This document shows, piece after piece, positions 27,410 through 35,355 of a stretch of DNA of 64,000 nt (the stretch's first letter is position 1; each line of letters begins with the position of its first letter). Both the position numbers and the translations under genes were made by a program. The notes beneath the pieces were generated by a model, which saw nothing but the letters and a program-made list of their open reading frames with translations, searched no databases and was not told where the DNA came from. This DNA comes from Candidatus Bathyarchaeota archaeon (lineage in GTDB: Archaea > Thermoproteota > Bathyarchaeia > Bathyarchaeales > Bathycorpusculaceae), in contig JAOULW010000001.1 in NCBI GenBank assembly GCA_029881805.1, positions 310,001 to 374,000 of the forward strand, given 5' to 3'.

Positions 27410-28024
27410 TTATCTGTTTGTCGCGGAATCAGCTTCTTTAATTTCAAAAACGAATGGTGGAACAGGAGTTTTTATATCTAGCTCTGTTCCTAGTAAGCCT
27501 TCTAAGAAGCCAGCCCAGATTTCAGATTCACTGATGAATGGCGCTTTTATGAGAATATACTTGTCTTTTATATAAAAGTCGCCGAATCCTTGCACTCTCA
27601 AGCGTTTGAAAACGTCCTGCCATTTTTCCTGATTTTCTGTTTGAATGCCGAGGGTCGTTTCTATAGAGATCTTTATAGCTTCACCTGTTTTTCTTCCAAT
27701 TTTCCGCCTTTCTTCTTTTGGGATGTGCTGAATGAAGATGTTAATAAGCTCTACATTCACGAAGGCTATGCGGCTTATGCCACAATAATACTCGCCTGGG
27801 AAGCGCCAATCATAAATCATCATACTCCGGTAAACATCAAGCATTTTGGAGATGAGGGGTTTGATGCCTGGTTCCTTTCCTTCTCTAATGAGGGAATCAA
27901 TAAATTCCCGTTCTTCCTTCTCTAGTATTATCGTTGTTCTTTTTGCTGAATCGTTGCTCTTTTTCATCATTTCTTCGAGTTTTTTCTCCTTGTCTTCTTG
28001 CATAATTGTTATATCTTTCAGCAT
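27410..28024 (-). CDS. Conserved hypothetical protein
   Basis: 204 residues, no membrane segment. After a charged start (EDKEKKLEEMMKK), a short segment TTIILEKEEREFIDSLI resembles the N-terminal arm of ribbon-helix-helix regulators. The middle and end, with FVNVELINIFIQHI and GFGDFYIKDKYILI, look like an alpha/beta ligand-binding domain. The ATG at 28024 is the longest start; an ATG at 28003 is equally possible. No family with known function is recognised; a regulator is my best guess. Confidence 0.6.
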   Translation of the reverse strand: MLKDITIMQEDKEKKLEEMMKKSNDSAKRTTIILEKEEREFIDSLIREGKEPGIKPLISKMLDVYRSMMIYDWRFPGEYYCGISRIAFVNVELINIFIQHIPKEERRKIGRKTGEAIKISIETTLGIQTENQEKWQDVFKRLRVQGFGDFYIKDKYILIKAPFISESEIWAGFLEGLLGTELDIKTPVPPFVFEIKEADSATNR

Positions 28025-28090
28025 ATCTTATATGCTTTGCTGACTTGCCCTTCACAACCGAACATTTTTTACACAGCTATGAGCAATTAA

Positions 28091-28152
28091 TATTTGCCGA
28101 TGAAGAATTTGCTTATCTGAAAAGATGATGCACCCTGGGGTATCTGAGGCGC
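28091..28152 (+). ncRNA. Candidate C/D box sRNA
   Basis: An intergenic element with the order and spacing of an archaeal C/D guide RNA: box C-like CCGATGA (28097-28103), 13-nt guide, box D' CTGA (28117-28120), 4-nt spacer, box C'-like ATGATGC (28125-28131), 12-nt guide (28132-28143) and box D CTGA (28144-28147). A TGCC/GGCG pair could close the ends. Each C-type box has one departure from RUGAUGA. The guides have no target that I could identify. A CTGGGG/CCCCAG hairpin followed by six Ts overlaps its 3' end and may be the terminator. Confidence 0.45.
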
Positions 28153-28170
28153 AAATCCCCAGTTTTTTGC

Positions 28171-28419
28171 CTAAGAAATGACTTTGTTCCTAATCAGATA
28201 CCATATAAGCACTAAACCAGCTACGAAAAGAACAAATCCAGAAAACATCGAGATTACATAGTTTATTTCAAGGATTCTTATGCTTACATAAACTATGTAG
28301 GTAGGTCCGACAAAGGTCAAAAAAGCTGCTAATATCACAAAAAATGTCTTCCAGTATCTTGAGCTAAGACGTAATCTACCAGGGATTTTATCTTTGCTTT
28401 CCTGTTTTTCCTCCGTCAT
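28171..28419 (-). CDS. Small two-TM membrane protein
   Basis: 82 residues with a charged N-terminus (EEKQESKDKIPGR) and two membrane segments (about 25-47 and 53-75), which leaves both ends in the cytoplasm. No known family is recognised. It is upstream of a candidate guide RNA on the other strand and downstream of a PAC2 gene, with no obvious functional link. Confidence 0.6.
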   Translation of the reverse strand: MTEEKQESKDKIPGRLRLSSRYWKTFFVILAAFLTFVGPTYIVYVSIRILEINYVISMFSGFVLFVAGLVLIWYLIRNKVIS

Positions 28420-33360: not shown

Positions 33361-33594
33361 CTATCTGGTAATCTTCCTTGCTTCTCTTTCAGTCTCTCTG
33401 AGCATCAAGATGTCCTGAACTCGGATTGGTCCCTTAACATTACGTGTTATTATCCGTCCTTTATCCTTTCCCTCTAAAATACGCACCCTAACTTGTGCAA
33501 TCTCGCCAGTTACACCAGTGCGTCCAATAACTTGAATTACTTCTGCAGGGATAAGTTCTTCTTCTGCGGTCGTTTTTTCTTCCTTGCTCATCAT
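33361..33594 (-). CDS. rps28e: Ribosomal protein S28e
   Basis: 77 residues. The OB-fold block [23 protein letters not shown] and the [11 protein letters not shown]-type end (here [12 protein letters not shown]) are diagnostic for this small-subunit protein near the mRNA exit. The first ATG overlaps the L7Ae stop by four bases (ATGA); a second ATG follows immediately. It is part of the operon with L7Ae and L24e. Confidence 0.95.
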
Positions 33595-33971
33595 TTTGCT
33601 CCTCTTTTAATCTGCTCGATTCTTGAAACTATTTCCTTCACTAACCCTACAGCATTTCCTTCCTTAACAATGCATGCGGCAGCAGCAGAAACGTCGATGC
33701 CTAAGGAGTTGCCAATCTTCTCCTTGCCTGGCACAAATATGTATGGTATCTTTCTTTCTTCGCAGAGTAGTGGAAGATGAGCCACGACCTCTGGTGGGTC
33801 AACATCCTCAGCTATTATCACTAGTTTTGCTTGAGCTCTTTCGATAGCTTTTGTTGTTTCATTTGTGCCTTTTCTAACCATGCCTGTTTTTGCCGCTACT
33901 TGTAGGGCTTCATAGGCCGCATCTGCGATCTCTTTAGGGACTTCATATTTTACGTAGAATGGTCTGGACAT
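33591..33971 (-). CDS. rpl7ae: Ribosomal protein L7Ae
   Basis: Kink-turn-binding protein of the large subunit, also the core protein of C/D and H/ACA RNPs and RNase P in archaea. Visible are [34 protein letters not shown] and [11 protein letters not shown], with the RNA-contacting GTNE. The frame is open to a GTG at 33980, but GGTGAGG suits the ATG at 33971 ([10 protein letters not shown]). It heads the L7Ae-S28e-L24e operon and is divergent from Gar1, another RNP protein. Confidence 0.96.
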
Positions 33972-34075
33972 AAGCCTCACCCTTCAAATGCACAGTCTTA
34001 TCGACATTTCTTGTTTATGAATGTTTCGACTAAAATTACACGAAGACGCTTCATTCGCAAACTAAAGCAGAAAAG

Positions 34076-34084
34076 TTTAAATAA
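34076..34084 (+). promoter_or_regulatory. TATA-like box for gar1-tfb
   Basis: The sequence tttaaataa is centred about 23 bases before the gar1 ATG, with no ribosome-binding site between. The gar1-tfb mRNA is thus probably leaderless. Confidence 0.5.
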
Positions 34085-34102
34085 AATGCTTCATTTGAAC
34101 CA

Positions 34103-34384
34103 ATGCACTTTTCGCGAGGGGAATTCAAAAATTTGCGGAGACTAGGCCGAATCCTTCACGTAACTCCAAGCAAGAATTTCGTAATAAACATCGAAAATCT
34201 CCCGAGAATTGGTGAAATAGTCGTTGATGAAGATTTAAGAACTGTCGGAAAGATTTCTGACATATTTGGCCCAGTAGATTCACCCTATGCAACGGTGAAA
34301 CCCACAATCCGAGAACTCCAGAAACTGGTGCATAAGATGCTATATGTGGCCCCCTCAAGAGGAGAGAGGAGAAAATCTGAATGA
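34103..34384 (+). CDS. gar1: H/ACA RNP protein Gar1
   Basis: 93 residues with the Gar1/Naf1 beta-barrel: [44 protein letters not shown] and a short tail. The FGPVDSPY motif is diagnostic. The protein regulates substrate RNA turnover by the Cbf5 pseudouridine synthase in H/ACA particles. Its stop overlaps the TFB start by four bases (ATGA), a conserved archaeal pair. Confidence 0.92.
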
Positions 34385-35355
34385 GCGATGATGAAGAAGG
34401 GCGCGAAGGTTCCGATCCTGCATTGTCAACTCAGCACATTGAATCTGTGAGGGTTCAATGTTGCCCAGAATGTGGCAGTACAAGAATTATGCGCGATTAT
34501 GAATCCGCGGAGATAGTTTGCATGGACTGTGGCATTGTTGTAGCATCCAAAATCGCTGATAGAGGACCGGAGTGGAGAGCTTTCGATGACGAACAAAGAG
34601 CAAAACGCACAAGAGTCGGTGCCCCACTCACTTATACAATTCACGATAAAGGCCTATCGACAATGATTGATTGGCATGACAGAGACATTTATGGAAAAAG
34701 CCTGTCACCAGGGCAGAAGGCACAAGTCTATCGACTTAGGAAATGGCAACGCCGAATAAGAGTTTCAGACGCAACAGAACGTAATCTTGCCTTTGCACTA
34801 TCTGAGATTACAAAGATTGCTAATAACCTAAATCTTCCCAAAAATATTCTTGAAACAGCCTCAGTGATCTATCGTAAAGCCGTAAAGGAACGCCTAATCC
34901 GCGGTAGATCAATTCAAGGCGTAACTGCCGCAGCAATTTACCTAGCGTGTAGACAATGCAGATTAGCCAGAACATTGGAGGAGATAGCTCAATCGTCGAG
35001 TGTAAACAAGAAAGAAGTTGGGCGCAGTTATCGCTTTCTCATTAAAGAACTCAACTACTTTGTCCCGCCTCTCAAGCCAAGCCAGTACATAACAAAGTTT
35101 TCAAACCAGTTAACAATGCAGGGAAAGGTTGAAGAAATCGCCCATAAAATTTTGGCGGCAGCAAAAGAACTCAAACTTACCTCAGGTCGTGGCCCAACCG
35201 GCATTGCAGCCGCGGCAAGTTACATAGCTTCTGTTTTGACTGGTGAAAGGAAGACTCAAAGGGAAATAGCGGAAATAGCACAAGTGACCGAAGTTACCAT
35301 TCGAAACCGTTACAAAGAGCTTGTCGAACGATTAATGTTCTCAATAACTGTTTAA
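34381..35355 (+). CDS. tfb: Transcription initiation factor TFB
   Basis: Archaeal TFIIB homologue that binds the BRE-TATA-TBP complex and brings in RNA polymerase. The N-terminal zinc ribbon reads CPECGST and CMDCGIV, followed by the B-finger/reader region ([12 protein letters not shown]). Two cyclin repeats follow ([15 protein letters not shown] and the second from [13 protein letters not shown]). 324 residues. A T-run right after the stop (35360-35375) is a likely terminator. Confidence 0.97.

Follow-up and report, generated by a model that had tools for sequence, protein, structure and literature searches.

A C/D box sRNA gene of Bathyarchaeia with a predicted guide for 23S rRNA C2441 and relatives elsewhere in its phylum

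What is encoded in the 146-nt intergenic gap at positions 28025-28170, and if the product is a guide RNA, what does it guide? The gap is flanked by two ORFs on the minus strand (27410-28024 and 28171-28419) of the window, the whole 64,000-nt stretch of a Candidatus Bathyarchaeota contig analysed here. An earlier note had proposed a C/D box sRNA with two guides at this place. On the boxes, the alignment of relatives and the Rfam matches, we delimited the sRNA body to 28096-28150 of the plus strand, which reads GCC-G-ATGAAGA-ATTTGCTTAT-CTGA-AAAG-ATGATGC-ACCCTGGGGTAT-CTGA-GGC. The C and D boxes sit beside a closing stem near the ends: its 5' arm GCC (28096-28098) is followed by the C box ATGAAGA (28100-28106), with one departure from RTGATGA, and the D box CTGA (28144-28147) is followed by the 3' arm GGC (28148-28150). 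Both arms are kept in relatives. Internally, the D' box CTGA (28117-28120) and the C' box ATGATGC (28125-28131) are separated by 4 nt (AAAG), at archaeal spacing, and enclose with the outer boxes a D' guide region of 10 nt (ATTTGCTTAT, 28107-28116) and a D guide of 12 nt (ACCCTGGGGTAT, 28132-28143). The order of the boxes, the arrangement from the D' box to the D box and the short closing pair had all been described correctly. The first guide had been given 13 nt (28104-28116); with ATGAAGA at 28100-28106 as the best C box, only 10 nt are left for the first spacer. The alignment of relatives backs this register, in that GCCG-ATGA[A/C]GA is nearly constant and variable sequence comes after it.

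The gene appears to carry its own promoter. A TATA element, ATTTTTTA, occupies 28064-28071 (+), about 25-31 nt upstream of the closing stem, and is directly preceded by CCGAAC (28058-28063, +), which we take to be a BRE-like element. When 44 loci were aligned by their closing stems, A/T reached 100% at -28 and -27, TATA-like hexamers clustered at -32 to -29, and an A-rich stretch covered -36 to -33. Archaeal transcription starts about 25 nt downstream of TATA; at this distance, the start would coincide with the sRNA's first bases. Scans of the locus for a sigma-70 promoter and an intrinsic terminator found nothing, as expected for an archaeal host.

At the 3' end, the hairpin followed by T6 that had been noticed just after the sRNA does exist (arms 28135-28140 with 28157-28162, T6 at 28163-28168, +), but it did not hold up as a terminator. 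Its 3' arm lies outside the RNA, it is absent from relatives and received no terminator call, it was not more stable than shuffled sequences (z -0.99; RNA folding gave no excess stability), and its formation would occlude the D guide. For these reasons we treated the hairpin as incidental and not as a conserved part of the sRNA. The T-tract, a possible transcription stop that is likewise not conserved, may help termination.

Conservation was assessed with a DNA search of 28025-28200 against 100 genomes (our own and relatives). At E<=1, 88 of the 100 gave matches, of which many were short and without significance; those that carried weight centred on query positions 71-126 (28095-28150) at about 75-86% identity, and query positions 100-126 reached about 88-96% in several genomes, some from other families. 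Sixty loci from this search were examined individually. The complete anatomy, described by one regular expression, was present in 43 of 60 own-family genomes, our own included, the others failing in part through incomplete assemblies and perhaps in part through true loss; the exceptions include one partly masked locus (G007) and two degenerate ones (G013, G015). Within the family, boxes and D guide are kept, and the D' guide differs between genera, that of the locus studied here being unlike the D' regions of its relatives. The neighbouring genes, shared within the family, were present at 47-49 of the 60 loci, at 0 of 14 loci from families f7 and f9, and at 0 of 10 Methanomethylicota loci. Outside the family, then, the neighbours differ while the sRNA stays, indicating that it is conserved independently of them.

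An exact scan of GTDB genomes with CCCTRGGGTATCTGAGGC, a string that includes the D guide and D box and so cannot gauge their variation, found 64 loci. Two bacterial loci (L168, L177) lack the anatomy and are chance matches, one (L204) is partly masked, and one from Acidilobaceae (L181) has an atypical yet recognisable C/D layout. The rest show the sRNA, at unrelated loci of Bathyarchaeia and Methanomethylicota, a few of the genomes being titled only 'Nitrososphaerota' or 'uncultured archaeon'. Judged from sequence, the C/D box sRNA gene at 28096-28150 is real and has a promoter of its own.

We then considered what the D guide would pair with, numbering 23S rRNA after E. coli K-12 rrlB (L207). 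Guide scans of the relatives' own 23S led to UUACCC[C/U][G/A]GGGAUAAC at 2437-2452, hereafter site B. Read as CCCTGGGGTA, the guide leaves position 1 unpaired, and positions 2-11 (28142 down to 28133) pair with UACCC[C/U][G/A]GGG at 2438-2447. This pairing was uninterrupted in 21 of the 22 Bathyarchaeia for which both pieces were available (18 of 19, plus G111, G115 and G118); in the exception, G030, one guide G is lost and the pairing is broken. Position 5 (28139) faces C2441, the N+5 register of C/D guides, for which the fifth-nucleotide rule (PMC7089733, PMC4644070) and an optimum of about 10 bp (PMC7089733) have been described. Guide and target vary together at position 7: A7 occurred only with U2443 (7 of 7 genomes), and G7 with C2443 (9) or with a wobble-paired U2443 (5). 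Shuffled guides equalled the site-B duplex in 3 and 6 of 1000 cases for two A7 guides and in 30-45 of 1000 for three Bathyarchaeial G7 guides; as the G7 duplex is only mildly unusual against shuffles, the case rests on recurrence and covariation. All five Methanomethylicota genomes with both pieces, and G231, have an A.C mismatch at position 7; for the Methanomethylicota D guide, the 23S offered no site with perfect 2-11 pairing, and site B has one mismatch. The stretch 2438-2447 borders the peptidyl transferase centre, in what we take to be helix 74. Very probably, the D guide directs a 2'-O-methyl to C2441.

For the genome studied here, a pattern search of its own contigs did not find the 23S target piece. 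Its rRNA genes are broken (G000 contigs C31, C12 and C16): the 16S lies on two contigs, and the 23S stops at a contig end with part missing, so that the assembly lacks the predicted target. One contig match to the 23S stops at model position 1945 near a contig end, and another starts after the site. Both 23S alleles of the family would pair with its D guide; we infer the exact target in this genome from its relatives.

The rRNA genes of other genomes showed irregularities of their own. The 23S matches of G134 (C1:1311953-1312934) and G165 (C16:45398-46627) are split by several hundred bases, the break in G134 falling on A2450-A2451 or no more than a few bases away, directly after the D target, in the manner of an rRNA intron. 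In G231 and G339, the 23S is split further downstream. G056 (L075) has the 23S D target twice, 177 bases apart, as a result of partial duplication or an assembly error.

The suggested comparison of both guides with 16S, 23S and tRNAs thus gave a complement for the D guide, in the relatives' 23S, but nothing convincing for the D' guide or in 16S and tRNA. The best 16S matches varied from genome to genome. The tRNA scan covered 33 tRNA predictions from 30 own loci (11 of the 41 own tRNA matches had no locus), and its best results were stretches of 8-12 positions that included wobbles or mismatches. The best 23S match of the own D' guide, GTAAGCAAA, has 8 Watson-Crick pairs and one G.U and stays below the 95% level of shuffled guides; D' matches in Bathyarchaeia were at chance level. 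The reading of this RNA as one with two guides therefore stands for the D guide, with its conserved 23S target, and not for the D' guide. A D' target is not required for membership of the class, sRNAs with one empty guide having been described (PMC4644070).

Did the D' guide ever have a target? A sequence-only model built from 37 RNAs (L181 excluded) matched 106 of 398 phylum genomes at E<=1e-3, comprising 33 matches in the own family, others in further Bathyarchaeia, strong ones in family f20 and weaker ones in many more families. One f20 genome has a 23S stretch identical to that of the Methanomethylicota query. We examined 40 model matches, mostly weaker ones; most have a C/D layout and a D guide like CCTGGGGTA, an invariance of the core that is partly by construction, as the core motif had guided the choice of both the loci and the model. 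Outside Bathyarchaeia, many of the examined matches carry the D' guide GTCATGCC or a variant, and the 23S has, a few nucleotides before the D target, GGGCATGAC at 2421-2429. There, 14 of the 20 outgroup genomes for which both pieces were available show a D' helix of 6-10 pairs; the other six (G204, G312, G142, G264, G134 and G165) have none. The alleles of rRNA and D' guide co-vary, as GGCATGAC/GTCATGCC, AGGTGAC/GTCACCT (f24) and AGATGAC/GTC[A/G]TCT (f28). When guides and targets were exchanged among 17 genomes, one per family, own pairs beat swapped pairs for both the D' guide (p 0.00085) and the D guide (p 0.0033), in a test that ignores kinship and uses genomes found with a model containing the D guide. 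Position 5 of the D' guide falls on C2424 where a clear CTGA sits one or two bases past the helix, and on G2423 in some genomes with a degenerate D' box. Six f6 genomes (G064, G071, G077, G080, G083 and G086) had no model match, and their 23S D target is intact where it could be read; the sRNA seems to be lost there or too diverged. G396 carries two copies of the sRNA (C19 and C3).

In Bathyarchaeia, the 23S at 2421-2429 is mostly GGATGTGTC or GGATATGAC. Their D' guides do not match their own 2421-2429, with the exception of G017, which has one partial D' helix with three wobbles that runs into the C box; as a group, their 23S matches do not go beyond those of shuffled guides. The simplest reading is that the rRNA at 2421-2429 changed, the D' guide drifted and the D guide was kept. 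More broadly, we find it probable that a single sRNA goes back to the ancestor of the phylum (Thermoproteota, broadly defined) and was passed down as a double guide on helices 74-75 beside the peptidyl transferase centre, and that in Bathyarchaeia the change of the 2421-2429 target freed the D' guide while the D guide stayed almost fixed. If true, this would allow one to follow, within an ancient guide RNA, how a guide is lost along with its target. A guide RNA that compensatory changes make traceable through a phylum, and that has retained one guide but not the other, would also help to test what makes certain rRNA methylations last.

The proposal of a C/D box sRNA was borne out by the anatomy, the conservation in the family, the full-length although sub-threshold Rfam matches and the conserved rRNA target of the D guide. 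The anatomy, promoter, conservation and guide-target complementarity with compensatory changes were obtained by computation. We consider it highly likely that this is a stand-alone C/D sRNA gene whose D guide directs a methyl to C2441, the heir of a phylum-wide double guide with one working guide left. From the sequence, we infer transcription, sRNP assembly and methylation of the target as follows. The TATA promoter would drive the gene (28096-28150, +), and the C/D and C'/D' motifs of the RNA would fold into kink-turns and bind L7Ae. The kink-turn protein of C/D sRNPs is encoded in this genome, on the minus strand at 33591-33980 (PF01248, E 1.6e-28), in agreement with the L7Ae gene previously placed at 33.6 kb. 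The RNA would assemble with Nop5 and fibrillarin, the D guide CCCTGGGGTA would form a 10-bp duplex with 23S 2438-2447, and fibrillarin would methylate the 2'-OH of C2441, opposite position 5. In the presumed ancestor, a D' guide GTCATGCC would have paired with 2421-2429; with the change of this stretch and the drift of the D' guide in Bathyarchaeia, a single working guide would have been left. Within a 2-kb stretch of the window (33361-35355), genes for L7Ae (PF01248), Gar1 (PF04410) and a TFB-like factor (PF00382) occur together, so that protein genes of C/D and H/ACA RNPs lie close to each other.

The D guide could instead act at another place in the 23S, AUACCYYRGR (site A, L004:2783), some 66 nt downstream of the conserved AAGCGTAACAGCTCAC motif and opposite GAAGCUGCGG of E. 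coli. The own 23S does contain this second partial complement of the D guide, AUACCUCAGG, and pairs there over positions 1-10 with one G.U; G7 guides in general fit site A well, and in G008, it offers 14 contiguous pairs, two of them G.U. We nevertheless ranked site A below site B because position 7 is mismatched there in 7 of the 9 genomes with A7 guides. Moreover, the near-invariant guide position 10 faces an A at site A in many genomes, site B suits both guide alleles, and in other families the D' target adjoining site B independently places the sRNA there. Site A is thus unlikely to be the main target; additional action there, beside the main target, is conceivable.

Even with site B as the target, the sRNA might serve mainly as a chaperone of rRNA folding that keeps one strand of helix 74 open during assembly, methylation being secondary. 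A long and conserved duplex with one strand of a peptidyl transferase centre helix would suit such a role, which has been published as a proposal for double-guide sRNAs (PMC4644070). The data do not separate the two roles, but position 5 and the 10-bp register, which methylation needs, are kept, and we give a mainly chaperoning function little credence. The most sceptical explanation is that the motif arose by chance or belongs to the untranslated region of an adjacent gene; both C-type boxes depart from the consensus at one position, on account of which chance had earlier been allowed, and the gap measures only 146 nt. A strict C/D motif, however, occurred once in the window (both strands), at the candidate, and in 0 of 60 windows simulated with a first-order Markov model; a looser motif with one mismatch per C-type box also occurred once in the window and in 1 of the 60 simulated windows. 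Boxes, guide and promoter are kept in families with different neighbours. Conservation already refutes this explanation, to which we assign a negligible probability, and makes a chance origin of the motif untenable.

Turning back to the preferred reading, a stand-alone sRNA guiding methylation at C2441, how does it compare with known systems? In an Rfam search with an E-value threshold, many archaeal C/D families matched 28096-28150 (+) at full length, the best being sR41 (8.3e-5) and snoPyro_CD (4e-4). None reached its gathering score, at this locus or in the nine homologue loci tested (snoPyro_CD 26.9 vs 45 bits, sR41 26.4 vs 54 bits). The families snoPyro_CD (RF00095), sR41 (RF01126), sR20 (RF01140) and sR39 (RF01122) share its box order, size, spacing and closing stem, but their guide sequences differ and all the matches are sub-threshold. 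The eukaryotic C/D snoRNAs SNORD24 and SNORD36 are alike in C/D architecture, with Rfam E values of only 1.6 and 7.4, and we claim no sequence relation to them. Searches of the literature by sequence string and topic, which did not extend to supplements and most subscription papers, found no report of this sRNA, and the sole match for Bathyarchaeota and snoRNA concerned RNase P proteins. The closest parallel is with the double-guide sRNAs of Dennis et al. 2015 (PMC4644070), likewise guides found in several species and directed to two nearby sites, among which empty D' guides are known. They act at different sites, for example the E. coli-equivalent 23S C2606 and 16S A535, and not at C2441 (with C2424 in other families); a term search of the main text of that paper found no mention of 2439-2441, and the Sulfolobus and Thermoproteus sets in its supplementary site lists may already hold Sulfolobales or Thermoproteales homologues. 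PMC7994747 describes archaeal C/D guides as fast-evolving, with no site common to all seven species studied. The sRNA described here adds a C/D sRNA for the uncultured Bathyarchaeia. As a C/D methylation guide, the molecule belongs to a common kind, and the case for it at this locus is good; what is unusual is how far this one member can be traced.
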